A stretch of DNA of 47,690 nt, taken from positions 1 through 47,690 of the forward strand of contig JAJUGZ010000023.1 of NCBI GenBank assembly GCA_029265715.1. Direction: 5' to 3'. The stretch is from Bacteroidota bacterium. Lineage in GTDB: Bacteria > Bacteroidota > Bacteroidia > Bacteroidales > Prolixibacteraceae. The stretch's first letter is position 1. Each line of letters opens with the position of its first letter. Below are positions 2,677 to 46,785 of this stretch, piece by piece. Under the pieces are notes generated by a model. It had not been told where the DNA came from. It worked only from the letters and a program-made list of their open reading frames with translations, and searched no databases. Made by a program: the position numbers and the translations under genes.

Positions 2677-2861
2677 ATGAAATAGCCATGTGTGCCAAAG
2701 TTCACACCAACCGAAAATGTACAAATGGCTATTCGCTTCGCGGATTTCACTGCGTGGATCTTTGCTGCGCTCCGATTCGCAAGCTCAATTCCATACCGGT
2801 GCGAATTTTATTGAAAAGCAAAAGCTGTTACGAAAATTGTACGAACCAACATTGAATACGA
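2677..2861 (+). repeat. ATGA-bracketed leader module, type A (copy 1, expanded)
   Basis: It begins ATGAAATAGCCAT and ends just before the ATGA that opens the next module. The type A arms AATAGCCAT and ATGGCTATT (9 bp) are intact, and the tail keeps TTACGAAAATTGTA. Compared with the two 135-base copies at 15538 and 31909 it is 50 bases longer, the extra sequence lying between the 3' arm and the tail and being richer in G+C. The first ORF, ATG AAA TAG, is only two codons long. Confidence 0.8.
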
Positions 2862-3004
2862 ATGAAACGAACATGCCACGGTAACAAAATTTATGGTGGT
2901 GGCACCAAAGGCCATGTAAATATTATTAGAGAAACTAATTCTCATGGCATGGAGTTCCATAAGTACATACCTAAATTTCAATATTTTAACAACAATATTT
3001 ACTT
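2862..3004 (+). repeat. ATGA-bracketed leader module, type B (copy 1)
   Basis: 143 bases lying exactly between two ATGA sites, the second being the ridA start. It is about 94% identical (9 substitutions, no gaps) to 35954-36096 in front of ugd. It contains an ORF of 48 codons (2862-3008) starting MKRTCHGNKIYGGG, whose TGA stop overlaps the ridA ATG as ATGA. CATGCCA near the start can pair with TGGCATG, and AATATT...AATATT forms a small hairpin just before the start codon. Confidence 0.85.
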
Positions 3005-3382
3005 ATGAAACGAGTGATTAATACATCCGAAGCTCCGGCTGCAATTGGTCCATATAGTCAGGCAATAGAAGTAAACGGAACGCTATATATCTCCGGACAA
3101 ATTCCGCTTGACCCTGCCACTGCAACAGTCGTTGAAGGTGGTATCAAAGAGCAAACCCTACAAGTGATGAAGAACATTGGCGCCATATTGAAGGCTGCGG
3201 GTTACGATTACAGCGACGTGGTAAAATCGACCTGCCTGCTGAGCGATATGGGCAATTTTAAAGCGATGAACGAGGTTTACGGAACTTTCTATCTGGAGAA
3301 TTGCCCGGCCCGTGCAGCGTTTGCAGTCAAAGAATTGCCGTTGGGAGTTTTGGTCGAAATAGAAACTGTGGCTGCCAAATAG
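3005..3382 (+). CDS. ridA: RidA family reactive enamine/imine deaminase
   Basis: 125 residues, the full length for the RidA/YjgF/TdcF family, which hydrolyses 2-aminoacrylate and related imines released by PLP enzymes. The conserved ISGQIPLDP stretch is at 29-37, the catalytic arginine in CPARAAF is R103, and the C-terminal LPLGVLVEIE is at 111-120. The start follows directly on a type B leader module, and the ATG overlaps the stop of that module's ORF, so translational coupling is possible. The downstream gene is convergent. Confidence 0.95.
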   Translation: MKRVINTSEAPAAIGPYSQAIEVNGTLYISGQIPLDPATATVVEGGIKEQTLQVMKNIGAILKAAGYDYSDVVKSTCLLSDMGNFKAMNEVYGTFYLENCPARAAFAVKELPLGVLVEIETVAAK

Positions 3383-3395
3383 GTTGCACGATGGT

Positions 3396-3443
3396 AAAAA
3401 AATCCCGCCGGATGTAAGGTGAGAGGTTTCATTTTCCGGCGGG
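3396..3443 (-). terminator. terminator of the S9 peptidase gene (convergent with ridA)
   Basis: CCCGCCGGA (3404-3412) pairs perfectly with TCCGGCGGG (3435-3443) around a 22-base loop. On the minus strand the stem is followed by a T-rich run. The same hairpin may also stop ridA transcription, though without a T tract. Confidence 0.75.
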
Positions 3444-3494
3444 GCTAAGTTTATAATTCGAACCAATTGCAAATTTAGCAATTAGTTCCGTTTC

Positions 3495-5588
3495 TTATTC
3501 ACTCTTAAGCCATTTGTCAAGCCATTGTTTAAATACGCGTTGCCATAAAATTCCGTTCTGGGGCTGTAAGACCCAGTGGTTTTCTTCGGGAAAATACAGG
3601 AACTGGGCCGGGATGTCGCGCATTCGGGCAGCATTGAACGCTCCCATTCCCTGGGTAACAGGTACGCGGTAATCTTTCTCTCCATGAATGACCAGGATCG
3701 GAGTATCCCATTTTTCAACGAACTTGTGGGGGGAGAAGGAGTACGAGCGCTGAGCTGCTGCATTTGCTTTGTCCCAATAAGCGCCGCCCAGGTCCCAGTT
3801 GGCAAACCACATTTCCTCGGTCGTTGAATATTGTTGTTCAAAGTTGAAAATTCCGTCGTGTGCGATAAAGGCTTTGAAGCGTTTGTTGTGGTGACCGGCC
3901 AGGTAATAAACCGAGAACCCGCCATAACTGGCGCCAACTGCTCCTAAATGGTCATTATCCACAAATGGTTCGGACGCAACGTTGTCGATGGCGCTCAGGT
4001 AGTCCTGAATGTTTTGTCCTCCATAGTCCTTGCTGATTTGTTCAAGCCACTCTTGTCCAAATCCGGGTAATCCGCGCCGATTGGGTGCCACTACAATATA
4101 TCCGTTGGCTGCCATCATCTGGAAATTCCAGCGGTACGACCAGAACTGGCTGACAGTTCCCTGCGGGCCTCCCTGGCAATACAAAATAGCCGGGTATTTT
4201 TTGCTGGCGTCGAAATGGGGCGGGTAGATAACCCAAACCAGCATTTCTTTGTTATCGGTTGTTTTTACCCAGCGTTTCTCGACTTGGGCCAGTGTGAGTT
4301 GGTCGAGAATGGCTTTATTTACAGCGGTCAGTTGTTCGTCTTTTCCGGTTACAGCATCTACTTTGTAAATATCAACCGGGTACGACATCGATTCTTTCAT
4401 TGCAATCAGGCAGCCGTCGGCTTCTTCAACCGAGCGGAAATCGTGGGTTCCGTCAGTTAACCGTTGGATAGAGCCGTCAGCAAGGTTAAGTTTGTAAATT
4501 TCTTCGGTAGCATGAATATCGCTGATAAAATAAATTGATTTTGAATCGGAAGCCCAGCTCAGTCCGTTCGAGTTCTGGTCGAAGTTGGCAGAATAATCAG
4601 TTTTTTTACCGGTTTCAAGATCGGCTACAAATAGCCGTACTTTGTCCGATTCGTAGCCATCACGTTCCATGCTTTCCCAAGCCAAGTACTTTCCATTCGG
4701 AGAGAAAACCGGGTGTTTATCGTAGCCCATCATGCCTTCGGTAAAGTTTCTTGTTTCTCCGGATTCGAGGTTATACATATAAATATCGACGTTAGTCGAT
4801 ATAGCATACGCTTTTCCGGTCAGTTTTTTACTGGTATAAGCCAGCGTTTTTCCGTCGGGGCTCCAGGCTAACTGTTCAATTCCGTCGAAGGGGCGGTCTG
4901 GTGCGTCAAACATTTCGGCGTCCATGATGTCTTTTCCTTCCCCGATTTTTCCATTCTCGTACGGTGCAATGAAAACATGGCTGTGTGTATAATCCTGCCA
5001 GCTATCCCAATGCCGGTACATCAGGTCGTTTTCAAGCCGGGCGTTGGCTTTGGGCAGATCGGGAAATAAATCGTGAATATCTTTTTCCAGCTTGATGTCG
5101 CGGGTGTAGGCAATGTGTTTCATATCGGGTGAGTACAGAAACCCGGTGATTCCGCCTTCGATATTCGAAACTTGCGTCGGTTCAGTCCCATCTGGGTTCA
5201 TTTCCCAAAGCTGGGTTGCTCCGGATTTGGACGAAAGATACCCGATCTTTTTGCCGTCGGGCCTCCAGGCTGCGCCCGATTCTTTTTCCGGAGTGTCGGT
5301 AATTTTTGTTGGTTCGCCACCCGAAACAGGTACGGTATACAAATCGCGGTACGACTTATTTTCTTCGATATGAATACTTGTCAGCGAGAATAAAACTGTT
5401 TTTTTGTCAGGCGAAACAGTGGCATCGCTCAATCTTCTGAAACTCCATAAAACCTCCGGGGTCATAATGTCCGAAGTTAATTTGGGAGCAGCAGCTTCAT
5501 CTGGTTTTATCATGTTTTGTTTTGTTTCGTTTTGTGTACACGCGATGGTGATTGCCAGTAAGGCAACCGGATAGAATAACCTTCTCAT
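3495..5588 (-). CDS. S9 family serine peptidase lipoprotein
   Basis: A 697-residue prolyl-oligopeptidase-family (S9) peptidase. It has a lipoprotein signal peptide (ITIAC, lipidated Cys17), so it is probably anchored in the cell envelope. Residues about 50-420 form a beta-propeller with repeated S-P-D/N-G-K motifs (for example at 243-247 and 296-300). The alpha/beta hydrolase domain carries the catalytic triad: Ser554 in GASYGG, Asp639 in HGEKDYRVP and His671 in EENHW. The family includes dipeptidyl and acylaminoacyl peptidases; the exact specificity cannot be read. It is flanked by terminators on both sides, so it is a single-gene unit. Confidence 0.92.
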   Translation of the reverse strand: MRRLFYPVALLAITIACTQNETKQNMIKPDEAAAPKLTSDIMTPEVLWSFRRLSDATVSPDKKTVLFSLTSIHIEENKSYRDLYTVPVSGGEPTKITDTPEKESGAAWRPDGKKIGYLSSKSGATQLWEMNPDGTEPTQVSNIEGGITGFLYSPDMKHIAYTRDIKLEKDIHDLFPDLPKANARLENDLMYRHWDSWQDYTHSHVFIAPYENGKIGEGKDIMDAEMFDAPDRPFDGIEQLAWSPDGKTLAYTSKKLTGKAYAISTNVDIYMYNLESGETRNFTEGMMGYDKHPVFSPNGKYLAWESMERDGYESDKVRLFVADLETGKKTDYSANFDQNSNGLSWASDSKSIYFISDIHATEEIYKLNLADGSIQRLTDGTHDFRSVEEADGCLIAMKESMSYPVDIYKVDAVTGKDEQLTAVNKAILDQLTLAQVEKRWVKTTDNKEMLVWVIYPPHFDASKKYPAILYCQGGPQGTVSQFWSYRWNFQMMAANGYIVVAPNRRGLPGFGQEWLEQISKDYGGQNIQDYLSAIDNVASEPFVDNDHLGAVGASYGGFSVYYLAGHHNKRFKAFIAHDGIFNFEQQYSTTEEMWFANWDLGGAYWDKANAAAQRSYSFSPHKFVEKWDTPILVIHGEKDYRVPVTQGMGAFNAARMRDIPAQFLYFPEENHWVLQPQNGILWQRVFKQWLDKWLKSE

Positions 5589-5693
5589 TTGTTTCCGAAA
5601 TTTAATGATCCCTTTTTTTTGACGTTGGGAAATTAAAGATTGTTTGTCAATAAAAAAAAGGATCGTGTGGCAACCGTAATGAGATTGACCGAT

Positions 5694-5727
5694 AAAAGAA
5701 TACCTGCCCTCATGTGTGAGCAGGTAT
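5694..5727 (-). terminator. terminator of the NigD-like gene
   Basis: ATACCTGC (5700-5707) pairs with GCAGGTAT (5720-5727) in an 8-bp stem, followed on the minus strand by TTCTTTTAT. Confidence 0.65.
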
Positions 5728-5762
5728 CGGGTGATAAATTTATTTATGGAATAGATTGATTG

Positions 5763-6458
5763 TTAATTATTCCCGTATTTGTAAGTTCCGTTGTATTTAA
5801 AATCAGCTCCTTCATACTCGGTCGAGGTAACGGTGTATTTTACCGAATCGAGGCCAGAAATCTGTATCGAACTAAGGTCAAACGTTACAACTGTTGTGAT
5901 CGGGATTCGTTTGGCATCGCCATTATCATTGTGACGAAATTCGAGCTGAATGGGTTGGTCAGCAGCAGTCAGAGTGCCGGGCTCTTTCACTAAATTGATG
6001 TAGTGGATTTTGTAATCGCCATAATACCTGATTTCAAAATTCAGCATATTGCGTACCTGCCAGGCTCTTTTAATGTGTATCGGATCGTGCCCGATGCTGT
6101 CTTCGGTTGCCGGCGTGATGTCAAAAATACCTTTGTAAAGTACTTTGTCGATCCGGTTAATCCTGACGTAGTATTCTTCCTGGTTGTTCGAATTTGTTTT
6201 TTCGCCCAGGATGGTAAAGTTTACTAATACGCGCTGGTTATTGTCAAATTCAAAATACGGGTTTGCATTGGCTACCGGATAAATGGTTGCTCCATCATCG
6301 AGCTTGATTGACAAGATGTTGTGACTGCCGTTTTCAGTCGTAACGATTCCCAGGTCCAACCACATGTCGCTCAGCGAATAACCATCATCATCCAAATCGC
6401 ATCCGGAAAATATTCCCAACATCCCTATAAACAGGATAATTAAGATATCCTTTTTCAT
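5763..6458 (-). CDS. NigD-like lipoprotein
   Basis: About 231 residues from the preferred start. An upstream ATG at 6494 would add 12 residues, but the start at 6458 gives a clean lipoprotein signal peptide ending in IFSGC. After the cysteine comes an acidic stretch (DLDDDGYSLSD), then a beta-rich body and a C-terminal domain with EFRHNDNGD. This order fits the NigD-like family of Bacteroidota envelope lipoproteins, whose function is not established. It is a single gene with its own terminator, and the neighbour on the right is divergent. Confidence 0.75.
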   Translation of the reverse strand: MKKDILIILFIGMLGIFSGCDLDDDGYSLSDMWLDLGIVTTENGSHNILSIKLDDGATIYPVANANPYFEFDNNQRVLVNFTILGEKTNSNNQEEYYVRINRIDKVLYKGIFDITPATEDSIGHDPIHIKRAWQVRNMLNFEIRYYGDYKIHYINLVKEPGTLTAADQPIQLEFRHNDNGDAKRIPITTVVTFDLSSIQISGLDSVKYTVTSTEYEGADFKYNGTYKYGNN

Positions 6459-6794
6459 CCCCAAATAATTTGTTTTTAAATATGCTCGTTTCATATTGGT
6501 TAGATTTTAATAGTTTAATATTCACTTCCCCAGTTACCAGTTAATAGATTAAACCGTTATTGAAAAGGTTGCGTTGATTTTTCCAGTCAGGATGATTTTA
6601 TGCCGGGTGCTTAAATTGTGGTATAAAAATTGATATATCCATATATATTTATATTTGAAAAATTATTAATTTTAACCGATTTGAAACAGAACTTATCTGA
6701 TTGGCGATGAAATGATTAATCCGTTGTTTTGTAGGTTTTTGTCGTTTGTAACTCCAATTCTAAAAGTCTGAATGTCGGAACAAAATTTAGATCG
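6459..6794. other. intergenic region between divergent genes
   Basis: 336 bases, strongly A+T-rich, with an alternating TATATA-type tract around 6631-6660. It must hold the promoters of the NigD-like gene and the thioredoxin lipoprotein, but no site matches the -33/-7 consensus well on either strand. No small ORF or stable hairpin stands out. Confidence 0.5.
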
Positions 6795-7313
6795 ATGAGA
6801 AAAATATTTTTAGCCATCGCAGCATTTTCAGTCATTTTTGCTTCATGTGAAAATGCTACCGGAAAACAATCCGGAGATAGTAATTCGAAGCCAGGATCCT
6901 CGGTTTCTGTAAATCAGGATAGTAATGCCGGAGGGAGTGTGTTGTTAACGAAAGCCGTCTTTCTTCAGAAAGTATGGAATTACGAGCAGTCGCCAAAAGA
7001 GTGGAAGTATCTGGGCGATAAACCGGCCATCATTGACTTTTATGCCGACTGGTGTGGTCCGTGCCGGATTGCATCGCCGATCCTGGAAGAGGTCAGCCAT
7101 GAGTTTGCCGGGAAAATAAATGTTTATAAGATTGACACGCAGCGGGAACAAGAGTTGGCCCAAGTGTTTGGTATTACTGGCATTCCGGCCTTTCTGTACA
7201 TTCCGACGGGAGGGGCAAAACCGGTGATGATGTCGGGGATTGCCCGTTCGAAAGAAGAAACAAAGGCCATGTTCATCGACAATATTGAGAAAATTCTTCA
7301 GGTAAAGAAATAG
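6795..7313 (+). CDS. thioredoxin-fold lipoprotein
   Basis: 172 residues. A lipoprotein signal peptide ends at FASC (lipidated Cys18), followed by a Ser/Gly/Asn-rich linker to about residue 48 and then a thioredoxin domain with the redox motif WCGPC at 86-90 and the cis-proline loop GITGIPAF. It is probably attached to the periplasmic side of a membrane, where it would reduce or exchange disulfides. The intact CxxC contrasts with the cysteine-less relative at 9283-10695. It is a single gene with a strong terminator 80 bases downstream. Confidence 0.9.
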   Translation: MRKIFLAIAAFSVIFASCENATGKQSGDSNSKPGSSVSVNQDSNAGGSVLLTKAVFLQKVWNYEQSPKEWKYLGDKPAIIDFYADWCGPCRIASPILEEVSHEFAGKINVYKIDTQREQELAQVFGITGIPAFLYIPTGGAKPVMMSGIARSKEETKAMFIDNIEKILQVKK

Positions 7314-7394
7314 AGCTGTCAGGACCTGACATTCTGGCGCAATTTCAATAGAACTGTTTGGGTAATTGTTTTTTGATTTGGATTCATGACTGAG

Positions 7395-7425
7395 AAAGGC
7401 TGTCCTTTTGGGGAACAGCCTTTTT
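7395..7425 (+). terminator. terminator of the thioredoxin lipoprotein gene
   Basis: AAAGGCTGT (7395-7403) pairs with ACAGCCTTT (7415-7423) and runs into a T tract. It lies between convergent genes. Confidence 0.8.
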
Positions 7426-7441
7426 CATATATGGTCGATTT

Positions 7442-7891
7442 CTATCTGTACGGTAATTTTGCCAGGGTTTCTGCCAGTTGGTTAACTCCTTTTTCAAGTT
7501 TACCCCCAATCATCATTTTTACCATCATACTCATTTCGGCCTGCAGGGTTAACCGCATCTTGGTTTCGTAGGCTGCAACCGGAAGCAGTTGTATCCACAA
7601 AATGATTTCGATCGGCATGCTCCCGCTGCTGACAATTTTGATTGTTTTGAACGGCTCGCGTTCGATGATCGAAATTCCGGCCTGACCCAGTCCACTGATG
7701 TTGAACCGGCACGAATCACGATCTGATTCAAAATCGGTGATCTTAATTTGCGGAACCTGTTCGGTTAGCTTTTCAAGGATTCCTTCGTTTACATATTTCG
7801 ACAGGTTTTCGAAATTCGAAAGATAATTAAAGATAATCTCCTGATTATTATTTATAAATTGTATTTCGCTTATGTACTTGCTTGCACCCAT
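7442..7891 (-). CDS. SRPBCC (START-like) superfamily protein
   Basis: 149 residues from the ATG at 7891; the longer reading frame would need a TTG start. The pattern of an N-terminal strand (SKYISEIQFINNN), a helix (IIFNYLSNFENLSKYV) and a long C-terminal helix (MVKMMIGGKLEKGVNQLAETLAKL) fits the SRPBCC helix-grip fold, which binds hydrophobic ligands. The ligand is unknown. It lies downstream of pyrE on the same strand, but a terminator separates them. Confidence 0.7.
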   Translation of the reverse strand: MGASKYISEIQFINNNQEIIFNYLSNFENLSKYVNEGILEKLTEQVPQIKITDFESDRDSCRFNISGLGQAGISIIEREPFKTIKIVSSGSMPIEIILWIQLLPVAAYETKMRLTLQAEMSMMVKMMIGGKLEKGVNQLAETLAKLPYR

Positions 7892-7898
7892 GATTTTC

Positions 7899-7929
7899 AA
7901 AAAAAAGCCCCTTCCTTTTCAGAAAGGGG
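7899..7929 (-). terminator. terminator of pyrE
   Basis: CCCCTT (7908-7913) pairs with AAGGGG (7924-7929). On the minus strand the stem is followed by a single C and a run of eight T. It sits between pyrE and the SRPBCC gene, so the latter may depend on read-through. Confidence 0.75.
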
Positions 7930-7968
7930 AGGTTTTTTATCTGATTTCGAAATGTAAGTTCGCGGTAT

Positions 7969-8604
7969 TTATTTTCCCCAAGTTTCCGGAGATTCGCGCC
8001 ATTTATTTAGGCTCTCAACCTGATCTTCGGTAATATCGCCCGATTCGAGTGCCAGATCAATCAGTTTCTGGTATCGGGACAGGGCTGTTAGTTCAAGTCC
8101 TGCTTCTTCAAAGTTTTTGCGAGCAACCGGGAAGTTATAAGTAAAAATGGCTACCATTCCCAAAACTTCGCCGCCGAAGTTTGTGATGGCGTCAGCTGCT
8201 TTCAAACTGCTAATCCCGGTTGAAACCAAGTCTTCGATAACAACCACTTTCTGGCCGGTTTTCATATCGCCTTCAATCAGGTTTTCCAGGCCGTGATCTT
8301 TGGGTTTCGAGCGCACGTAAATAAACGGAAACCCCAACTCCTGGGCAACCAAAACACCATGGGCAATCGCTCCGGTAGCAACTCCGGCAATTACTTCGGC
8401 TTGCGGATATTTTTCTCGGATTACTTTGACGAACTGATCGCGGATAAATGTGCGTTCTTCCGGGTAAGATAAGATCTTACGGTTGTCACAGTAAATTGGC
8501 GATTTCCATCCAGAGGCCCAGGTAAACGGATTTGATGGTTGGATTTTTATTGTGTTAATTTGTAGTAATCTCTTTGTAACTTCAACTTGAATTTGTTCGA
8601 TCAT
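7969..8604 (-). CDS. pyrE: orotate phosphoribosyltransferase
   Basis: 211 residues. It converts orotate and PRPP to orotidine monophosphate in pyrimidine synthesis. The PRPP-binding motif VVVIEDLVSTG is at 120-130, the family motif FTWASGWKSPIYCDNR is at 27-42, and the flexible loop VRSKPKDHG is at 97-105. Only 32 bases separate its start from the divergent Nudix gene, so the two promoters must overlap each other or the opposite coding region. Confidence 0.96.
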   Translation of the reverse strand: MIEQIQVEVTKRLLQINTIKIQPSNPFTWASGWKSPIYCDNRKILSYPEERTFIRDQFVKVIREKYPQAEVIAGVATGAIAHGVLVAQELGFPFIYVRSKPKDHGLENLIEGDMKTGQKVVVIEDLVSTGISSLKAADAITNFGGEVLGMVAIFTYNFPVARKNFEEAGLELTALSRYQKLIDLALESGDITEDQVESLNKWRESPETWGK

Positions 8605-8636
8605 AATGCTTATTGTTTAACTGAAAAACTGGACAA

Positions 8637-9275: not shown

Positions 9276-9282
9276 TCCAGGC

Positions 9283-10695: not shown

Positions 10696-10742
10696 GGCAT
10701 TAAATGTTTCCCAACTTAAGCAAAAACGATCGATAGGCGTGT

Positions 10743-11234: not shown

Positions 11235-11387
11235 CTCTATTTTATTTCAGCTATTCGAAAGCGTAAAGATACAGTTTATCTGATCGCATCGGGTATTTTG
11301 CCTGATTAATTGAAAATCGCCGCCAGAAAAGGCACTATTTTTTTGAAGTGACCGTTTGGTTTAATCACTAAGCATAACTATTTTTTC

Positions 11388-11395
11388 TACTTTTG
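11388..11395 (+). promoter_or_regulatory. -7 box of the first glycosyltransferase block
   Basis: TACTTTTG matches TAnnTTTG, 27 bases before the ATG at 11423. No clear TTTG is present 19 bases upstream. The box overlaps a possible TTG start at 11393, which is one reason to prefer the ATG at 11423. Confidence 0.5.
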
Positions 11396-11422
11396 CCTGT
11401 CCGACAATCTGAAACTAAAAAA

Positions 11423-15376: not shown

Positions 15377-15415
15377 TTTTCATCTCGTTGTGAATTTTAT
15401 TGAAGACCAATGGGA

Positions 15416-15537
15416 ATGAAGATAAAAAGGAACAACATTAAAAATTTATACGAAATATTTGCTTGGGTAAACATCATCCGAGAAGGCAATGCAAGCATGG
15501 ATATTCAAATTGACCATAAAAACCAAATTATTTACAG
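15416..15537 (+). repeat. ATGA-bracketed leader module, type C
   Basis: 122 bases between two ATGA sites, carrying a 41-codon ORF (15416-15541, starting MKIKRNNIKNLYE) whose TGA overlaps the ATG of the following type A module. The peptide contains VNIIRE, also found in the type B ORF. The DNA tail AACCAAATTATTTACAG resembles the tails of other modules. The 15377-15415 stretch just before it holds CATCTCGTTG, a piece of a type A module. Confidence 0.6.
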
Positions 15538-15672
15538 ATGAAATAGCCATAAAAGCTGAAGCTTATGCCAACCGGGAATGTATAAATGGCTATTCCATCT
15601 CGTTGAAAAACTAGTTTGAAAAACAGAAATAGATACGAAAATTGTAAGAAATAACTTTGAAAATTTATACGG
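15538..15672 (+). repeat. ATGA-bracketed leader module, type A (copy 2)
   Basis: 135 bases, ending directly before the start codon of the GT-C gene at 15673. It is 89% identical (15 differences, no gaps) to 31909-32043 on the other strand. The 9-bp arms AATAGCCAT/ATGGCTATT are identical in both, the loop between them carries most differences, and the tail of about 75 bases has only three. The tail includes TAACTTTG, which fits a -7 box and could start transcription next to the ATG. Confidence 0.85.
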
Positions 15673-24740: not shown

Positions 24741-26084
24741 TTAATTTTTATATCGGAGCCATTTGATGATTTCCTTTAGGTTTACTTTTTTCCCATACAT
24801 CAGGATTCCGGTCCGGTATATTTTGCCGGCTATCCAGATCGTTCCCATGATTGTGGCGAGCAGGGTTACGATCGACACAACAAGTTCCCACCAGGCAACC
24901 CCGAACGGAATGCGTACCATCATGATGATAGGCGAGGTGAGCGGAAAAATTGATGTCCAGAAGGCAAAAGCGCCTTCCGGATTTTTGATAACGGGGAAGA
25001 GTATGGTGATTGAAAAAATAAGCGGGAACATAACCGGGAACATCATTTGCTGGGCATCTTCATCGTTGTCGGTTGCGGCGCCTATCGAGCCCATGAGCGA
25101 CGCATACAGAATAAACCCGGCAACGAAGTAGAAAATGAAGCAGGAGATAATCAGGACTAAATTGAGGTTCCCGATGGCGTCAAGAACCTGAAGTACCTGG
25201 TTATTGCTTGCAACCTGGGTTCCAGCCTGGTTCATTACTTCGGGGGAAACGATGCTTTGAGCCCGGGCGGCAGAACCAGCTCCGGCGCCTCCGAAAAATA
25301 CGTGTATTCCGGTTGAAATGCTAAAGCCCAAAACCACCCATATTGCTACTTGTGTCAGGCCGACTAAGCCGATGCCAACGATTTTTCCAAACATAAGCTG
25401 GAATGGTTTTACAGATGAAATAATCACCTCGACAATTCGGCTTGATTTTTCTTCCATTACCCCACGCATGACCATCATGCCGTACATCAAAACAAACATG
25501 TAAATAAGGAAGCCGGAAATATAGCCTACTGTCATGGCCATTTCGGTTGAACCTTTTATGGCTTTCCCTTCTTCTCCCAATTTGATGGTGGAAAGGTTGA
25601 TGTTGGTCCGGGTGGCGCTCAGGCGTTTGTCTAAGTCAGGGATGCCTGATTCGGCAATAATTTGCTGGCGTTTGTCGTTCTCAATGAGTTTGTTCAGGCG
25701 GTTCTCAATCAGGTTTTTGATATCAATGGTCACCTGCTTGTCCGAGATCAGACTGGCTTGGTTGATACTCAAGATATTGATCGGAATGTGTAATACCGCA
25801 TAGTAGTTTCCCGATTTGAAATCAGCTTTTAATGCATTGTATTCATCCTCCGGAATGTAATGAAACCGGGTGTACTGGGTTTCTTCCATCCGGTTGAGAA
25901 ACAAGCTTGTTTCGTCGTAAACTGCAATTGTGCGTTGTTGTTCATCATCCATTGTCGAAAGGTAGATGGGCAGAACGGTAAAAAGCACCATCATAAACGG
26001 AACCAGCAGGGTCATGATTATAAACGATTTTTTTTTGACCCGGGTTAGGTATTCGCGTTTGAGTATGAGCAGCGATTTGTTCAT
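24741..26084 (-). CDS. ABC-2 type transporter permease
   Basis: 447 residues. One membrane span near the N terminus (SFIIMTLLVPFMMVLFTVLP), a large outer domain of about 150 residues, then five or so spans in the C-terminal half. This NatB/YhaP-like layout belongs to ABC-2 export permeases, and the motif SRIVEVIISSVKPFQLMFGKI is typical of it. It lies 3 bases downstream of the ATPase gene, and the two form a transporter. The exported substrate (sodium, lipid or peptide) is unknown. Confidence 0.88.
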   Translation of the reverse strand: MNKSLLILKREYLTRVKKKSFIIMTLLVPFMMVLFTVLPIYLSTMDDEQQRTIAVYDETSLFLNRMEETQYTRFHYIPEDEYNALKADFKSGNYYAVLHIPINILSINQASLISDKQVTIDIKNLIENRLNKLIENDKRQQIIAESGIPDLDKRLSATRTNINLSTIKLGEEGKAIKGSTEMAMTVGYISGFLIYMFVLMYGMMVMRGVMEEKSSRIVEVIISSVKPFQLMFGKIVGIGLVGLTQVAIWVVLGFSISTGIHVFFGGAGAGSAARAQSIVSPEVMNQAGTQVASNNQVLQVLDAIGNLNLVLIISCFIFYFVAGFILYASLMGSIGAATDNDEDAQQMMFPVMFPLIFSITILFPVIKNPEGAFAFWTSIFPLTSPIIMMVRIPFGVAWWELVVSIVTLLATIMGTIWIAGKIYRTGILMYGKKVNLKEIIKWLRYKN

Positions 26085-30645: not shown

Positions 30646-31908
30646 TTACATGTTGTTATTCCCGAATTTTTTCAGGATGTCTTTTACTGCATCTTTGTGG
30701 ATGGTGAATCCCATCATTTTCAGTTTCACGTAATCTTCGCTGAAGAAGTAGTATCCGAATTCTGGTGCCTGGGGGTCGTTGTTGCGCGATCCGGACCCTG
30801 AGTCCTTGATTAGGTACCAGTCTTTCCCGTCGCCGTTGAAGTTTTCCACGTAGCCAATCAGGTGAATGCCGTGGTCGTCGGTTGTGGTTTTGTTGGCAAA
30901 TCGGAAAGCCCGCGAATCTTCGGTAATGTAGGCCGACGGAATATCGAAGTCGGGAACCATGGCGCACTGGGTTTCGCGTATGAACCCCGGTTCGGAGGTA
31001 TCGCCTCCAATGCTCATGGTATAACCTTTCCGGATAGCGTCTTTGATGATTTGCATGAAAACGTCGAGCGGAACATTGTAATAATCGTTGCTGTGCCACC
31101 AGTTGTCCGGAACGGTATATTCAACTTTTTGCCAGTAAGGTTTTTGTTTATATGAAAGGATCTCTACAAAATCGTCGGGGTTAATTTTTAATGAAGCAAA
31201 GTACGATTGGGGGGTGAAATCTTTTCCATCGACCATGAAACGGGTTGGAGGAACGCCCATGTAATGGTTCATAATGTCGCGGATTGTAGCCAATACGGCT
31301 TCTTCATTCCACGAGTTGGTTGTTTTGACCGATTCCAGATAGGCTTTCATTTCGGCCACCATGGGTTCGTGGTTGTGAAATTTGCGGCCATTGATTAACC
31401 CGCTATAGACTGATTCGGGCATCATGCCATACGTTTTTGCCAGGCGGGCAACGGCATTTCCTTCAGAACCTTCGTCGAAAACAGAGTTTCCCCGTTCGGC
31501 AACATAGCGGCGTGCTTTTTCAATATATTCGCAGTAAGCCAGGTACATTTCAGAGAGTTTGACTTTTTTCCCGGTAGTCCGGTAGATTTCCGATTCAAAA
31601 AACGACAGGGTTGAAAAATCCCAGCATGTTCCGGTGTTCCCCTGTGAAATAGGCGGGTTGGCCCATTGTGATTTGTACAGGCTTATTTTGTTTGGAAGTT
31701 TATAACCCGATTGGTCCATACTGAGCCTGAATTCTGGTTCTTTTTTATTGATTGAATCGTCAACATTCCGGATGTCTTTCAAGATAGTTTGAAAGTAATA
31801 GCCTTCTCCCTGGGGGATTTCAATCAGGTTGGCTTTATCCTTCGGTTGTGCCATGATCGCGCTGCAACCGAAAATCAGGCAGGCCGGGAGTAAAAGAATC
31901 TTTTTCAT
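30646..31908 (-). CDS. C1 family (bleomycin hydrolase-like) cysteine peptidase, exported
   Basis: 420 residues with an export signal; either signal peptidase I after SAIMA or a lipobox at LIFGC is possible. The papain-like active site is present: Gln89 and Cys95 in SQGNTGTCWDFS, and His349 in DDHGIHLIGYVENF. At the third catalytic position the usual Asn of NSW is Asp369 in IKDSG, which may change activity. Length and insertions fit the PepC/bleomycin hydrolase group of aminopeptidases. The start is directly preceded by two leader modules (31909-32161) on the same strand. Confidence 0.85.
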   Translation of the reverse strand: MKKILLLPACLIFGCSAIMAQPKDKANLIEIPQGEGYYFQTILKDIRNVDDSINKKEPEFRLSMDQSGYKLPNKISLYKSQWANPPISQGNTGTCWDFSTLSFFESEIYRTTGKKVKLSEMYLAYCEYIEKARRYVAERGNSVFDEGSEGNAVARLAKTYGMMPESVYSGLINGRKFHNHEPMVAEMKAYLESVKTTNSWNEEAVLATIRDIMNHYMGVPPTRFMVDGKDFTPQSYFASLKINPDDFVEILSYKQKPYWQKVEYTVPDNWWHSNDYYNVPLDVFMQIIKDAIRKGYTMSIGGDTSEPGFIRETQCAMVPDFDIPSAYITEDSRAFRFANKTTTDDHGIHLIGYVENFNGDGKDWYLIKDSGSGSRNNDPQAPEFGYYFFSEDYVKLKMMGFTIHKDAVKDILKKFGNNNM

Positions 31909-32043
31909 CTGTATAAATTTTCAAAGTTGTTTCTTACAATTTTCGTATCTATTTCTGTTTTTCAAACTAGTTTCTCAACGAGATGGAATAGCCATTTGTA
32001 CATTTTCGGTTTGTATGATCGATGGCTCTTATGGCTATTTCAT
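31909..32043 (-). repeat. ATGA-bracketed leader module, type A (copy 3)
   Basis: 135 bases, the same length as copy 2 at 15538, ending directly at the start codon of the C1 peptidase gene. The arms AATAGCCAT/ATGGCTATT are intact, and a second AGCCAT inside the loop gives an alternative 5' arm. In frame with the end of the module, the reading frame is open for 18 codons after an internal TGA and closes at the TGA overlapping the gene's ATG. Confidence 0.85.
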
Positions 32044-32161
32044 GTTATAAATAATTAGTTTTTAAGGTACTATGTCTGCTTGCCGGCAGACAGGGAACTC
32101 CATGTTGCTGAAAAATTATTATCATGGCACTGGGTGCGTTGACGCAACATATTTGTTTCAT
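32044..32161 (-). repeat. ATGA-bracketed leader module, type D (copy 1)
   Basis: 118 bases carrying a 38-codon ORF (MKQICCVNAPSAM...) that stops with TAA one base before the next ATGA. It shares CAGCAACATGG and GTTCCCTGT with the copy at 35832. ATGTTGC near the start pairs with GCAACAT about 45 bases later, and TGTCTGC/GCAGACA forms a second perfect 7-bp stem. The remaining 129 bases up to rnz (32162-32290) show no gene. Confidence 0.75.
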
Positions 32162-35775: not shown

Positions 35776-35831
35776 GAAGTCATTTTTAGACTAAAGACCT
35801 TTAAGTCTGATAACAATAAACAGTTAGGAAT

Positions 35832-35953
35832 ATGAAACGGACATGTTGCTCCACAACACTTTCATGGCATGATGATAATTTTCAGCAACATGGTGTTCCC
35901 TGTTTGCCGACATCAGGCATACTGCATATTATTAAAAAACAAATCATTATAGT
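35832..35953 (+). repeat. ATGA-bracketed leader module, type D (copy 2)
   Basis: 122 bases with a 41-codon ORF (35832-35957, starting MKRTCCSTTLSW) whose TGA overlaps the ATG of the following type B module. CATGTTGC near the start pairs with GCAACATG (8 bp) around a loop of about 35 bases. It shares FQQHGVPCLP with the ORF of the other type D copy. The first 13 bases, ATGAAACGGACAT, resemble the type B opening. Confidence 0.8.
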
Positions 35954-36096
35954 ATGAAACGAACATGCCACGGTAACAAAATTTATGGTGGTGGCACCAA
36001 AGGCCATGTAAATGTTATTAGAGAAGCTAATTTTCAGGACATGGCGTTCCATAAGTACACGCCTAAAATTCAATATTTTAACAACAATATTTACTT
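35954..36096 (+). repeat. ATGA-bracketed leader module, type B (copy 2)
   Basis: 143 bases, gap-free partner of 2862-3004. Its 48-codon ORF (35954-36100) ends in a TGA that overlaps the ugd ATG. All nine substitutions between the two copies change an amino acid. The stem CATGCCA/TGGCATG of copy 1 is weakened here. Confidence 0.85.
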
Positions 36097-37431: not shown

Positions 37432-37432
37432 G

Positions 37433-38374: not shown

Positions 38375-38390
38375 TAAAAAACAATAGAAA

Positions 38391-39272: not shown

Positions 39273-39290
39273 ACATGCTAAAACGTTAAA

Positions 39291-39845: not shown

Positions 39846-39856
39846 TCTGAATCGAA

Positions 39857-40732: not shown

Positions 40733-40744
40733 AAATAATTGGTT

Positions 40745-42484
40745 ATGTCAGATTTGTTGGAAATGGTTAAAGGAAAAGCCCAACAGTGGCTGAGCGATGT
40801 TTATGACGAACAGACCCGGGCCGAGGTGAAACGCATGCTGGAAAATAAAGATCCGACCGAATTAATTGATTCGTTTTATAAAGATCTTGAATTTGGAACT
40901 GGTGGCTTGCGCGGCGTGATGGGGGTTGGAACCAACCGAATGAACATCTATACCGTTGGCGCAGCAACTCAGGGGCTGAGCAATTACCTGAAAAAAGTGT
41001 TTGCCGATCAGCCGGAAATTAAAGTGGCCATTGGTCACGATTGCCGTAACAACAGCAGGTTGTATGCCGAAACCAGCGCGCAGATCCTTTCAGCCAATGG
41101 CATTAAAGTATATCTGTTTGAGGATTTGCGCCCAACGCCCGAATTGTCGTTTGCGATTCGCGAGCTCGGTTGCCAAAGCGGGATTATCTTGACTGCTTCG
41201 CACAATCCGAAAAAATACAATGGTTACAAGGCCTATTGGACCGATGGGTCACAATTGGTTGCGCCTCACGATGAAAATGTGATTGCCGAGGTAAATAAAG
41301 TGAAGGCAGAGGATATCCTTTTCAACGGGAACGACGATCTGATTACGATCCTGGGCGATGAAATGGACCGCAAGTTCATCGAAAAGGTAAAAACCGTGTC
41401 GATTTCTCCGGATCTGATAAAAAAGCATGCCGATCTGAAGATCGTTTATACCCCGATTCACGGAACCGGCGTGAAATTGGTGCCGATGGCATTGGAGGCG
41501 TTCGGTTTTAAAAACATAATCCATGTGCCTGAGCAGGATGTTGTGAGTGGCGATTTCCCGACGGTTATCTCACCCAATCCAGAAGAACCGGCCGCAATGG
41601 AAATGGCTGTTAAAAAAGCAAAAGAAGTAGATGCCGATGTGGTTATGGCTTCAGACCCCGATGCCGATCGCATTGGCGTGGCCGTGAAAAACCTGAAAGG
41701 TGAGTATGTGATTATAAATGGGAACCAGACTGCCTTGTTGTTCATCTATTACATCATCACCCGGATGAAGCAGAACAACGCGTTGAAGGGCAACGAATTT
41801 ATTGTTAAAACCATTGTTACAACCGAAAAAATTGCAGAAATCGCACGCCGGAATGGCATTGAATATTACGATGTTTTTACCGGATTTAAATTCATTGCCG
41901 AGATTATTCGCGAATTGGAAGGCGTGAAAAAGTACATCGGCGGGGGCGAAGAAAGTTTTGGTTTCATGCCGGCCGACTTTGTGCGTGACAAAGACGCTGT
42001 TTCGTCGTGTGCCCTGATGGCCGAAATTGCAGCCTGGGCCAAAGACCAGGGCAAATCGCTGTACGAAATGTTGCTCGATATCTATCTGGAATATGGTTTT
42101 TCTCGCGAAAAAATGAAATATGTAGTTCGTGAAGGAAAATCAGGAGCCGAAGAAATCGAACAAATGATGGTGAACTTCCGCAACAACCCGCCGAAAACAT
42201 TGGGTGGTTCGGTTCTTCGTATCGTGAAAGATTATGAAACATTGGTTGAAAAGGATCTGGTGACCGGAGCAGAAAGGCCGATTAACCAAAAAATTACATC
42301 CAATGTGCTTCAATTCTTTACCGAAGACGGAACAAAAATTTCGGTTCGTCCTTCAGGGACAGAGCCAAAGATTAAGTTCTATTTCGAAGTTGCCGCCGAG
42401 CTGAAAAAACGTGAGGATTTTGATGCCGTTGAAGCAAAAGCCGATGCCAGGATCGAAAGCATCATGAAAGAATTGGATTTGTAG
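40745..42484 (+). CDS. phosphoglucomutase/phosphomannomutase
   Basis: 579 residues from the ATG at 40745 (a TTG two codons earlier is less likely). An alpha-D-phosphohexomutase with the phosphoserine loop TASHNPKKYNG (Ser152), the metal-binding loop DPDADRIGV, the sugar-binding GGGEESFGF and the phosphate-binding RPSGTEPKIKFY. Length fits the PgcA-like long form. It supplies glucose 1-phosphate for RmlA and for UDP-glucose, which explains its place at the end of the nucleotide-sugar operon. Confidence 0.93.
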   Translation: MSDLLEMVKGKAQQWLSDVYDEQTRAEVKRMLENKDPTELIDSFYKDLEFGTGGLRGVMGVGTNRMNIYTVGAATQGLSNYLKKVFADQPEIKVAIGHDCRNNSRLYAETSAQILSANGIKVYLFEDLRPTPELSFAIRELGCQSGIILTASHNPKKYNGYKAYWTDGSQLVAPHDENVIAEVNKVKAEDILFNGNDDLITILGDEMDRKFIEKVKTVSISPDLIKKHADLKIVYTPIHGTGVKLVPMALEAFGFKNIIHVPEQDVVSGDFPTVISPNPEEPAAMEMAVKKAKEVDADVVMASDPDADRIGVAVKNLKGEYVIINGNQTALLFIYYIITRMKQNNALKGNEFIVKTIVTTEKIAEIARRNGIEYYDVFTGFKFIAEIIRELEGVKKYIGGGEESFGFMPADFVRDKDAVSSCALMAEIAAWAKDQGKSLYEMLLDIYLEYGFSREKMKYVVREGKSGAEEIEQMMVNFRNNPPKTLGGSVLRIVKDYETLVEKDLVTGAERPINQKITSNVLQFFTEDGTKISVRPSGTEPKIKFYFEVAAELKKREDFDAVEAKADARIESIMKELDL

Positions 42485-42492
42485 CAGATCGC

Positions 42493-42527
42493 GATTGACT
42501 GCAGGCGCCAACTACCTGCAGTTAATC
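42493..42527 (+). terminator. hairpin after the nucleotide-sugar operon
   Basis: GATTGACTGCAGG and CCTGCAGTTAATC form a 13-bp stem with one G-T wobble around a 9-base loop, 9 bases past the phosphomutase stop codon. It has no T run, so it may protect the mRNA end or act as a partial terminator. Two smaller hairpins, ATCCG/CGGAT and AAAGGG/CCCTTT, follow before the next gene. Confidence 0.5.
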
Positions 42528-42598
42528 CGTCTATCGGATAGAAGTGAAAGGGGAATCGACCCTTTAATTATGTGTTTAACCTAAATCAATTTTTACCG

Positions 42599-43357
42599 AT
42601 GAACAAACAACTTGTTTGGGCGGCAATTGGCGTATTCGCTTTTTCCGCAAGTTTTGGGCAGCAACCTGCCGATTTTCCGATGAAACCTGAAATGACCGAA
42701 ATCTGGGACCCTGAAGTCCCTGTGGTTACGCCGGGTGAAACTCCGATGGATGCCCCTTCGGATGCCATTATTCTTTTTGATGGCAAAAACCTGAATGCCG
42801 AGTGGACCAATGCCGATGGGAAAGAACCCGGCTGGAAAGTTGCCGATGGTTGTGTGACGGTGGTCAGAGGAGCTGGCATTATTCAAACCAAACGCAGTTT
42901 TAACGATTTTCAGCTGCACATTGAATGGCGTACTCCCGCAGAAGTAGTTGGCGAAAGTCAGGGCCGCGGCAACAGCGGGATATTCCTGCAATCGCTCTAC
43001 GAAGTTCAGGTCCTCGACAACTACAAAAACCGCACTTATCGCAACGGACAGGCCGGCAGTTTGTACAAACAACACGCTCCGCTGGTAAATGCGTGTAAAG
43101 GTCCCGGCGTTTGGCAGGTGTATGACATTATTTATACCGCGCCCCGGTTTAACGCAAACGGCACATACTTTACACCGCCTTACGTAACTGTTATCCAGAA
43201 TGGCGTGCTGGTGCAAAACCATGTCGCCCTGCGCGGGCCAACCGAATACATCGGGATTCCTGAATATTTTGTGAAACCTCACGGGGCGATGCCAATCCAG
43301 TTGCAGGACCATGGCAACCCGGTAAGCTATCGCAATATCTGGATTCGCGAATTATAA
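42599..43357 (+). CDS. 3-keto-disaccharide hydrolase/DUF1080 domain protein, exported
   Basis: 252 residues from the ATG at 42599; an in-frame ATG nine codons earlier would spoil the signal peptide, which reads NKQLVWAAIGVFAFSASFG before QQ. The DUF1080 domain (concanavalin-like fold) starts at AIILFDGKNLNAEWTN and includes DFQLHIEWRTP, GNSGIFLQ and YEVQVLDNY. Members hydrolyse 3-keto-glycosides or bind sugars. It is followed by a strong terminator. Confidence 0.85.
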   Translation: MNKQLVWAAIGVFAFSASFGQQPADFPMKPEMTEIWDPEVPVVTPGETPMDAPSDAIILFDGKNLNAEWTNADGKEPGWKVADGCVTVVRGAGIIQTKRSFNDFQLHIEWRTPAEVVGESQGRGNSGIFLQSLYEVQVLDNYKNRTYRNGQAGSLYKQHAPLVNACKGPGVWQVYDIIYTAPRFNANGTYFTPPYVTVIQNGVLVQNHVALRGPTEYIGIPEYFVKPHGAMPIQLQDHGNPVSYRNIWIREL

Positions 43358-43370
43358 CTTACCATTCGAG

Positions 43371-43402
43371 AGGCTGAACCAACTTGGTTCAGCCTGTTTC
43401 TT
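43371..43402 (+). terminator. terminator of the DUF1080 gene
   Basis: AGGCTGAACC (43371-43380) pairs perfectly with GGTTCAGCCT (43386-43395), followed by a T-rich run. Confidence 0.85.
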
Positions 43403-43425
43403 TTAGCTAACTACAAACCTGAACC

Positions 43426-45033
43426 ATGACTATTACCTGGCGAAATATTGTATCGCTCGCTGCTTTATTATTTGTCTTCGCACAGACGTTACGGGGGCAG
43501 AATTTTTCTTCCGAATTGCCTCTGGTTCTGATTAATACCAATGGTCAAACCATTGTTGACGAACCTAAAATCTTAGTCCAGATGGGAATTGTCTGGAATG
43601 GTGCCGGCAAACTGAACCGTTCAACCGATACCCCGAACAACTACAACGGGAAAGTTGGGATTGAAATCAGAGGTTCATCGTCTCAGAGTTTCCCGAAAAA
43701 GAGCTATGGCTTCGAAACAAAATCCAACGACGGGCAGGATATGAATGCCTCCCTGCTTGGGCTTCCTGCCGAAGAAGATTGGATTTTATATGGCCCGTAT
43801 TCCGATAAATCATTAATCAGAAATGTGCTGACTTTTACATTAGATGCTACCCTGGGACATTATTCGCCGCGTTGCCGCTATGTCGAATTGTTCCTGAACG
43901 GAGGTTATCAGGGAGTGTATGTGCTGATGGAAAAAATTAAACGCAATAAAAACCGGGTGAGTATTGCCAAGTTAACAGCCGACGAAACGGCAGCCGCAGA
44001 TATTTCCGGAGGGTACATCATCAAGATCGACAAAACCACTGGCGCTACTTCGGGCGGTTGGTATTCGTCGTTTGCAAACACGACCTACGGGCGTACGTAT
44101 TATCAGTACGATTATCCAAAGCCTGAAGAGATTAATGGCGTACAAAAAAATTATATCCAGAATTATGTGTACCAGTTTGAGAAAGTGCTTTATTACGAGC
44201 AGTTTAAAGGAACAGGTGCTTATACCGAATTTATGAATGATTCGTCGTTTGTCGATTTTTTTCTGATTAATGAACTGACAAAAAATGTGGACGGTTACCG
44301 TTTGAGCTCGTACTTGTTTAAAGATAAAAATGGCAAACTGAATTGCGGGCCAATCTGGGACTACAACCTTGGCTGGGGAAATGCCGATTATTATGAAGGA
44401 TATGCAACCTCGGGGTTTCAGTATAAAATGAACATCGGGCAGGATAACTGGCAGGTCCCGTTTTGGTGGAATAAGCTGATGCGGGATGCCGCGTTTACCG
44501 GGAAAATTAAATGCCGATGGAACGAATTACGCCAAAAACAATTGTCGACCGAGCGCATTTTATCGGTTGTTGATAGTTTGACTTTTTTGTTGAGGGATGC
44601 CGAGGCAAGAAATTTTCAGCGCTGGCCGGTGCTTGGTTTGTATGTTTGGCCGAACTACTATGTAGCTTCAACCTATGAGGCCGAGATCGCCTGGACTAAA
44701 AACTGGATCCGCAATCGCCTGGACTGGCTTGATAACAATATGATCGGGACTTGTACGGTAACCGGTATGCCAGAACTTGCAGCAGAGGCATCGTGCCGGG
44801 TTTATCCAAATCCGTTTATTGACCGGATATCGGTATCAATGAATCAACGTTGTTCCGGCAAAACACGGTTCTTGCTCTACAATACTTCCGGCGTATTGGT
44901 GGCACAGTCATCCGGAGTGATTGTAGATGGTTACACAGAACTGGATTATTCCGGATTGACGGAGGGGATCTACTTCCTGAAAATAGTAGATGGTTATCAG
45001 GTTACTGCAACACACAAGCTTGTGAAACATTAG
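43426..45033 (+). CDS. CotH family protein with type IX secretion sorting domain
   Basis: 535 residues. A signal peptide ends near LRGQ; the CotH kinase-like domain covers about 25-410 with GIEIRGSSSQSFPKKSYGFE near the start and the later GPIWDYNLGWGNADY, where the conserved DxNxxxG-like motif lies. CotH proteins are atypical kinases that can phosphorylate proteins. The last ~80 residues (VYPNPFIDRISV ... GIYFLKIVDG ... HKLVKH) are a type A sorting domain of the type IX secretion system, so it is sent to the cell surface. Confidence 0.88.
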   Translation: MTITWRNIVSLAALLFVFAQTLRGQNFSSELPLVLINTNGQTIVDEPKILVQMGIVWNGAGKLNRSTDTPNNYNGKVGIEIRGSSSQSFPKKSYGFETKSNDGQDMNASLLGLPAEEDWILYGPYSDKSLIRNVLTFTLDATLGHYSPRCRYVELFLNGGYQGVYVLMEKIKRNKNRVSIAKLTADETAAADISGGYIIKIDKTTGATSGGWYSSFANTTYGRTYYQYDYPKPEEINGVQKNYIQNYVYQFEKVLYYEQFKGTGAYTEFMNDSSFVDFFLINELTKNVDGYRLSSYLFKDKNGKLNCGPIWDYNLGWGNADYYEGYATSGFQYKMNIGQDNWQVPFWWNKLMRDAAFTGKIKCRWNELRQKQLSTERILSVVDSLTFLLRDAEARNFQRWPVLGLYVWPNYYVASTYEAEIAWTKNWIRNRLDWLDNNMIGTCTVTGMPELAAEASCRVYPNPFIDRISVSMNQRCSGKTRFLLYNTSGVLVAQSSGVIVDGYTELDYSGLTEGIYFLKIVDGYQVTATHKLVKH

Positions 45034-45116
45034 TTTTTTGTCGGTCTGGCATTTTACCAATTTCTTACATCTTTATCGTACGATCGTGAAGCAGTTATGC
45101 GCTATTCATTTTTGTC

Positions 45117-45124
45117 TATCTTTG
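45117..45124 (+). promoter_or_regulatory. -7 box of guaA
   Basis: TATCTTTG matches TAnnTTTG; TTA lies 19 bases upstream in the position of TTG. The guaA start follows after 25 bases. Confidence 0.6.
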
Positions 45125-45149
45125 CGGCAACCAAAAAAACATACGATTC

Positions 45150-46679
45150 ATGCAGGAAAAAATTCTTATTCTTGATTTTGGTTCGCAGTATACGCAGCTT
45201 ATCGGTCGAAGGGTCCGCGAGTTAAATGTGTATTGCGAAATCTATCCGTTTAACCATTATCCAGAGATCGACGAAACGGTTAAAGGGGTGATTTTGTCCG
45301 GAAGTCCGTATTCGGTACGCGACGAGAATGCCCCGAAACCTGATTTGTCGGCCATAAAGGGCAAGATGCCATTATTAGGCGTTTGCTACGGGGCGCAATA
45401 TTTGTCGCACTTTTTTGGAGGAGAAGTGCTTCCGTCGAACTCACGCGAGTACGGTCGGGCCAACCTTGAGTTTATCGATCAAAACAATATCTTGTTTAAA
45501 CAGATCAGCCGGCATACTCAGGTTTGGATGTCGCACGGCGATACCATCGATCGGCTGCCTGAATCGTATAAAATTATTGCCAGCACTGCCGATGTAAAAA
45601 ATGCGGCATTTGTGGTCGAAGGCGAACAAACGTTTGGAATACAGTTCCATCCTGAAGTTTATCACACCACCGAAGGGACACAGCTCCTGAAAAACTTCGT
45701 GGTAGATGTGTGCGGTTGCAAACAGGACTGGACTCCGGATTCGTTTATTGAAACGACAGTTGCCGAGCTGAAAGCCAAACTGGGCGACGACAAAGTGGTA
45801 CTGGGCCTTTCGGGCGGTGTCGATTCGAGTGTGGCTGCGGTATTACTGAATAAGGCAATCGGTAAAAACCTGACCTGTATCTTCGTTGATAACGGGTTGC
45901 TCCGGAAGGACGAATTTGCCAGTGTTATCGACTCATACCAGCACATGGGACTGAATGTGATTGGCGTCGATGCCCGTCAGAAATTCTGGAACGACCTGGC
46001 CGGTGTGACCGATCCGGAGAAAAAACGCAAAATCATTGGCCGCGACTTTATCGAAGTGTTCGACGAAGAAGCGCACAAAATACAAGATGTAAAATGGCTG
46101 GGACAAGGGACGATTTATCCCGATGTCATCGAGTCGGTTTCGGTAAACGGTCCGTCGGCCACCATCAAATCGCACCACAACGTGGGGGGGCTTCCGGAAA
46201 AAATGAAACTGAAAGTGGTTGAACCGCTGAAGCTTTTGTTTAAAGATGAGGTCCGTCGCGTGGGTAAGGCCCTTGGCATTAAGCCCGAATTGCTGGGCCG
46301 TCACCCGTTCCCGGGGCCAGGTCTTGGCATCCGTATCCTGAGCGATATTACCCCGGAGAAAGTTCGTATTTTGCAGGAAGCCGACGCGATTTTTATCAAC
46401 GGGTTGCGCGAGTGGGGCCTGTACGACAAAGTCTGGCAGGCTGGCGTGATGTTGCTGCCGGTCCAGTCGGTGGGCGTGATGGGCGATGAACGTACTTACG
46501 AAAATGTAGTGGCGCTGCGGGCTGTGGCTTCAACCGACGGGATGACTGCCGACTGGGTGCACCTGCCATACGAGTTTTTGGCCAAAATGTCGAACGAGAT
46601 TATTAACAAAGTGCGGGGGATTAACCGCGTTGTTTACGACATCAGCTCAAAACCGCCGGCAACCATCGAATGGGAATAA
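45150..46679 (+). CDS. guaA: GMP synthase (glutamine-hydrolysing)
   Basis: 509 residues. It converts XMP to GMP using glutamine and ATP. The N-terminal class I amidotransferase domain has the catalytic Cys in LGVCYGAQY and the His-x-Glu in FHPEVYH; the ATP pyrophosphatase loop is [12 protein letters not shown], and the C-terminal dimerisation domain ends with the typical PPATIEWE. It has its own promoter. A degenerate leader-type module and a very strong hairpin follow. Confidence 0.97.
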
Positions 46680-46690
46680 TTCTTTCAAAA

Positions 46691-46778
46691 ATTAAACAGC
46701 TGTAAGAGCCATCGCTCATACACACCGAAATGAACAAATGGCTTTCCATCTGACAACTTAAAAACAAATTATTTACGG
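46691..46778 (+). repeat. ATGA-bracketed module, type A (copy 4, shortened)
   Basis: 88 bases that align with copies 2 and 3 but lack about 47 bases of the tail; the opening ATGA has become ATTA. It ends just before ATGA like the others, but what follows is the guaA terminator hairpin and not a gene. The outer 5' arm is degraded while the inner AGAGCCAT can pair with ATGGCTTT, so a stem is kept. Confidence 0.65.
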
Positions 46779-46785
46779 ATGAATA

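Follow-up and report, generated by a model that had tools for sequence, protein, structure and literature searches.

Hairpin modules inserted at ATGAA start words in Bacteroidota, possibly transposase-less elements whose foot tracks the target

Insertion sequences of the IS200/IS605 type, such as IS608 and ISDra2, and their transposase-less derivatives carry a hairpin and enter a fixed short target that is left single, as passages of PMC6006769 and PMC5934647 describe. The guides of IS608 and their re-targeting are treated in parts of PMC5934647 and PMC8266576. For REP elements, sections of PMC3733652 and PMC8266576 assume that a Y1 protein moves them in trans. A section of PMC6006769 gives Y1 subclass 1.2 the signature Y---Q--HH and describes its members as mostly without the usual terminal structures. 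Here we describe short hairpin modules that resemble IS200/IS605 elements in carrying a hairpin and leaving their target single. They were met in a window of 47,690 nt, the whole stretch of DNA analysed, from a Bacteroidota bacterium of the Prolixibacteraceae. We give a probability of roughly 60% to the reading that the modules are non-autonomous mobile elements working like single-strand transposons of the IS200/IS605 kind. Judged from the sequences, this likeness in working is the best but an unproven account, and we do not file the modules as members of that group.

The initial annotation had placed nine modules in the window, and the coordinates of all nine were confirmed. Seven are recognised by the genome-wide profile models. 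Five of these matches are full-length, that of 32044-32161 falls a little short of a whole type C module, and 2677-2861 is matched as two halves, being split by another palindromic repeat nested within. The remaining two stretches are less well preserved than that annotation implied, 15416-15537 being degenerate and 46691-46778 decayed. The nine stretches are as follows.

2677..2861, + strand: type B2 module with a nested palindromic repeat at about 2738-2786 (partial model matches 2677-2737 and 2787-2857)
2862..3004, + strand: type A module ending at the start codon (3005) of a ridA-like gene (PF01042); full model match
15416..15537, + strand: degenerate stretch with uncertain module boundaries; a decayed type B tail at 15378-15452 crosses the first ATGA
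15538..15672, + strand: type B module ending at the start codon (15673) of a glycosyltransferase-like gene (PF13231); model match
31909..32043, - strand: type B module ending at the start codon of a C1 peptidase-like gene (30646-31908, - strand; gene by Pfam); model match
32044..32161, - strand: type C module; model match to positions 1-93 of 98
35832..35953, + strand: type C module; model match
35954..36096, + strand: type A module ending at the start codon (36097) of a ugd-like gene (by Pfam); model match
46691..46778, + strand: decayed module behind a GMP synthase-like gene, its closing ATGA not a gene start; partial match 46738-46778

By eye, the closing ATGA of 46691-46778 opens a short frame within a terminator-like hairpin and is therefore not regarded as a start codon. 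Elsewhere in the window, the end pattern TTTACAGATGA occurs at 25408-25418 within a predicted gene with no adjoining module, probably by chance.

Each module consists of a hairpin head of about 55-100 nt and an A/T-rich tail of about 25-75 nt. In all head types the two feet read ATGAAA and TTCCAT, with differing stems (ATAGCCAT/ATGGCTAT in type B, ATGCCA/TGGCAT in type A, ATGTTGC/GCAACAT in type C). Folding gives one clear hairpin per module, with energies for single sequences that are unremarkable (z from +0.1 to -1.7 as RNA). Across 25 B-type heads (23 distinct, from several genomes), compensatory changes occur in four of the five pairs of the inner helix, and the outer helix hardly varies. 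Heads and tails are found in several combinations, which indicates that recombination between modules does happen. A search of the window against Rfam gave no family at gathering score, and in 12 loci no module was matched with a meaningful score up to an E value of 5; one weak rli47 match (20.8 bits, the cut-off being 200) overlaps the module of L097.

Several heads contain a further palindromic repeat, GCTTCGCGGATTTC...GATTCGCAAGCTC, lying between GGCTATTC and their TTCCAT foot; examples are 2738-2786 of the window and other G000 modules, among them those in the C62, C73 and C82 pieces. The type A modules at 2862-3004 and 35954-36096 hold a 48-codon open frame whose TGA overlaps the next ATG (ATGA), and this frame is kept in 26 of 31 type A copies. 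A conserved peptide is not supported, as differences show no third-position excess: counts at codon positions 1/2/3 are 11/4/7, 14/9/14 and 12/9/9 in three species pairs, and 20/23/29 when 23 equal-length type A copies are compared with their consensus.

The modules are a large dispersed family. In the 4.2 Mb genome of the window, the end pattern TWTACRGATGA has 155 matches versus 2 for its reversed control, and the pattern ATGAAAYRNNCATG has 126 versus 1. Queries of the same genome returned 36 matches for type A (35 of them long), at least 56 for type B (40 of 211 candidate regions scored) and 23 for type C, some of which are pieces of one copy. Pattern and similarity searches also detect relatives in other Bacteroidota, one of them a module of Gaoshiqia sediminis (L310). 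Viral contigs searched with one head pattern and plasmids searched with one type B query gave no match.

For closer counting, 80 stretches around the first-listed pattern matches, ordered by contig, were combined with loci from earlier searches into a sample of 110 pieces (0.586 Mb). Five class profile models gave 247 matches in this sample, 173 of them full-length. Joining split halves yields 233 modules: 173 full, 14 split by a nested palindromic repeat or similarly, and 46 partial. These form 151 arrays (86 single modules, 52 pairs, 10 triples, 2 quadruples and one of five); halves split by nested repeats are joined in this count and were counted as two in an earlier grouping of 147 arrays. 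The same class meets at 8 of 82 module-to-module junctions, or at 14 of 82 if B and B2 are merged, so most arrays look like successive insertions rather than one unit duplicated. Many draft contigs start or stop within modules (L005, L010, L022, L041-L043, L045, L057, L258-L260 and L262), as expected if near-identical copies break assembly.

Comparison with sister species makes it close to certain that the modules are true insertions. At ridA, 13 of 13 sister loci lack a module, with the same upstream gene running to the start codon, and the ugd locus is empty in six of six. The C1 peptidase locus is empty in eight of nine, G011 having a different module before the same start. The glycosyltransferase (GT-C) gene had no sister match covering the gene, and hence allowed no empty-site comparison. 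Between the sisters G011 and G017, an exact 87-nt insert stands before the same start codon, with flanks identical at 58 of 60 bases before it and 193 of 200 after it. This filled/empty pair has no variable target duplication, and empty sites hold a single [A/G]TGAA word; modules thus insert beside a fixed short word without duplicating further bases. Another module (L114:1919-2052, in G000:C73) lies within the 3' end of the genome's only detected Y1 gene and alters its C-terminus, and the Y1 homologues in G024 and G018 are uninterrupted at this place. The repeated insertion suggested by the initial annotation is accordingly upheld by the empty sites at ridA and ugd and by the exact G011/G017 pair.

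The proposed insertion site, ATGA, turned out to be part of a longer word. Among the 173 full modules, 158 begin with ATGA and 161 are followed by it, although part of the sample was chosen with an ATGA-containing pattern, which favours both figures. Type A copies, most of which were found by similarity, have ATGA at 25 of 31 right ends, with GTGA at two, other words at two and two cut by contig ends. The 102 arrays with ATGA at their end continue with A at base 5 in 101 cases and at base 6 in 89; among the 35 of them away from ORF starts, base 5 is A in 34. From these counts the target is ATGAA(A), with GTGAA taking its place for hairpins that have the other foot.

The position directly before a start codon, which the initial annotation had noted at four loci, is the commonest site but one of several. 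Ends could be placed for 108 arrays, namely the 147 of the first grouping without the 37 whose last module is partial or split and the 2 that reach the end of a piece. Of these ends, 67 coincide with the exact first codon of an ORF of at least 60 aa. Another 25 are intergenic with the next gene on the same strand and 9 with it on the opposite strand, 3 lie inside or overlap a gene, and 4 have no downstream gene in the piece. Control sites outside modules and coding cores open such an ORF at 360 of 1221 ATGA and 86 of 217 ATGAAA words, against which 59 of 88 ATGAAA-matched array ends do so (p ~2e-5). Genes in this genome commonly start with ATGAAA, and by this matched comparison roughly a quarter to a third of the excess at start codons is put down to the longer word; the rest may reflect survival, benefit or targeting. 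A head pattern neutral on the right end found at least 61 loci in public Bacteroidota contigs, overlapping the sister genomes G008, G012, G013, G017, G018 and G024, and 48 of 61 end at an ORF-opening ATGAA. Inspection of the other 13 by eye shows four that continue into another module head, one that starts an ORF with ATGATA, one truncated at the end of its locus and at least one too close to such an end to be judged.

The word at the right end varies with the foot of the hairpin. In type A modules of G018 the foot TTCCAC replaces TTCCAT, and several of these stand at GTGA. A strict automatic count assigned TTCCAT feet to ATGA in 163 cases and to GTGA in one (57 without a call), and TTCCAC feet to ATGA in one and to GTGA in eight (11 without a call), two of these 20 TTCCAC feet looking like chance matches. 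The association has a Fisher p of 5e-12 with kinship ignored.

An order-wide TTCCAC-foot pattern, neutral on the right end, located at least 21 loci in 11 of 393 genomes, seven of the 21 being judged chance (L369, L370, L374, L375, L377, L378 and L381). The other 14 comprise six at GTGA (L373, L380, L383, L384, L387 and L389), four at ATGA (L371, L376, L379 and L386) and four without a call (L372, L382, L385 and L388); L376 and L379 failed the stem rule and are thus doubtful modules. Further hand-read TTCCAC cases stand at GTGA (L259, L264, L266, L282 and L362) or ATGA (L258 and L261). The total by hand is 11 GTGA and 6 ATGA, and these copies are not independent, the TTCCAC/GTGA cases coming from six genomes or contigs and five of the 11 from G327. 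At L263 a TTCCGC foot stands at GTGA, and foot and target also match in another family of the order. Counted in the window's genome by itself, TTCCAT feet stand at ATGA in 143 cases and at GTGA in two; the supply of words outside coding cores there is 550 ATGAA and 216 GTGAA.

Between L258 and L259, copies identical up to that point, the A/G of the right word is the first difference, and all 31 type A copies have ATGA as their left word. By this divergence and this constancy, the right word is part of the target and the left one part of the element. Taken together, these counts suggest that the hairpin foot likely chooses the target. The tracking of the target by the foot is new here.

In the mechanism that we propose, the 3' foot, which reads TTCCAT or TTCCAC on the strand of the gene and ATGGAA or GTGGAA on its complement, would be a guide that pairs with a target on the strand opposite the gene, TTTCAT or TTTCAC. 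By sequence, the left ATGA moves along with the element, and the right [A/G]TGA is the target's own. We assume an enzyme acting in trans, for which a protein with the Y1 subclass 1.2 signature is a candidate. Because each copy would bring a new ATGAAA, arrays could grow head to tail, and most surviving copies would lie at start codons because ATGAAA is a common gene start in the lineage and insertion there keeps the frame whole. The opposite strand, read 5' to 3', presents first the target TTTCA[T/C] and then the element, which has the guide [A/G]TGGAA at its hairpin's 5' foot and finishes in TTTCAT. Wobble at the target fits this strand, since GTGGAA can pair with both GTGA and ATGA sites and ATGGAA with ATGA only. 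Within the stems, G.T on the gene strand occurs 37 times versus 16 for A.C (28/12 in the inner helix, 9/4 in the outer); the fourth pair is A.C in 162 of 166 heads, a count for which 7 of the 173 heads were set aside because their base four is not A. This in-stem G.T excess would fit pairing of the gene strand or of RNA, against the strand favoured here.

Transposition of the IS200/IS605 type, raised as a candidate in the initial annotation, gains from the covariation of foot and target, but a Y1 locus with matching ends was not found among the 31 + 20 scanned with the module models. The sole match in the 31 was the module inserted in L114, and the 20 further loci gave none; a motif scan left several Y1 loci unparsed. 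A model built from at most 29 Y1 proteins detected no further Y1 gene in 1.8 million letters (overlaps counted). In the only Y1 gene detected in the genome, the motifs DHLH, WQ and YIQNQEHHH fit the subclass 1.2 signature as given in a section of PMC6006769. This gene is flanked by other palindromes, as are its relatives in G011, G018 and G024. The clade near the interrupted gene occurs in four genomes, each with modules (G000, G011, G018 and G024), and was not seen in module-bearing G013 (its one Y1 match read) or G017 (seven of eight read), so we claim no correlation between clade and modules. The Y1 genes of L114, L142, L390 and L394 (65-80% identical to L390) have the common flanking palindromes CCCAAGGC... 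and GCCCTTTCAGGGC, and longer words of the Y1-flank palindromes seldom occur in the part of the window's genome that was sampled.

Cis-regulatory RNA leaders, in which the mRNA foot UUCCAY would pair with an AUGAA or GUGAA start and control translation, the modules being kept and spread for that reason, are an unlikely alternative when both sides are weighed. The modules do occupy the leader in the orientation of the gene, their inner helix covaries, G.T exceeds A.C in the stems on the gene strand, and start codons are enriched beyond the target word. Yet RNA pairing would tolerate UUCCAU with GUGA, seen in one case, and would not tolerate UUCCAC with AUGA, which is found once in the strict count and six times by hand; moreover, 35 of 102 ATGA-ending arrays lie off ORF starts with the same target word, and neither the window nor the 12 loci matched Rfam.

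About as improbable is membership in another known class, either DDE-type MITEs with a preferred target or tyrosine-recombinase folded-strand cassettes. Such a class would suit modules that are short, numerous, structured and without a gene of their own, and would suit the lack of a partner among the Y1 loci scanned, but the G011/G017 pair is free of variable target duplication, and to our knowledge a foot that covaries with its target is a feature of neither DDE-type MITEs nor tyrosine-recombinase cassettes. A third alternative, that homologous recombination or gene conversion copied a leader cassette with no transposition step, would account for the several combinations of heads and tails, which do attest recombination between modules. 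It is nevertheless very improbable, given the exact ATGA boundaries with flanks otherwise unchanged in the filled/empty pair, the module inside the 3' end of a coding gene, and the match of foot and target in another family of the order. Beyond the preferred reading of single-strand transposition, we see an even chance that the modules are widespread transposase-less elements of Bacteroidota whose foot is a natural DNA guide for the ATGAA or GTGAA start, sparing the gene. Under this wider proposal the guide would have switched between ATG and GTG in evolution, and the elements would be moved in trans by a Y1 subclass 1.2 protein or an unknown enzyme.

If these readings are true, they would explain how many unrelated genes can gain structured leaders and stay unbroken. 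The modules would then be a testable substrate for Y1 subclass 1.2 proteins, and a single change in the foot should shift insertions from ATG to GTG starts. Among the titles of the literature matches listed, which include few subscription papers, none concerns start-codon-targeted hairpin elements.

The modules share with REP elements and their TnpA-REP (RAYT) proteins the many short palindromic copies, mostly extragenic, as described in parts of PMC3733652 and PMC8266576. Whereas REPs have the tags GTAG or CGTC, the module foot is ATGA / TTCCA[T/C]; head-to-tail dimers, said in the passages on REPs to be absent or under-represented, are the rule for modules; and modules do not flank the Y1 genes scanned. 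The subclass 1.2-like Y1 gene of the genome likewise has other palindromes as its own flanks and holds a module in its 3' end. Unlike IS200/IS605 elements, which have a hairpin near each end, each module has one hairpin, its target is a six-base word containing a start codon, and no transposase gene or partner with module ends was found at the 31 + 20 Y1 loci. As in that group, the modules would use a guide beside the hairpin foot to pair with the target, and on the strand opposite the gene the order of target, guide and end site is that of IS608, as far as passages of PMC6006769 and PMC5934647 set it out. The modules would provide natural guide switching in DNA-guided insertion, for which the IS608 case, in the parts of PMC5934647 that report it, is one of engineering.
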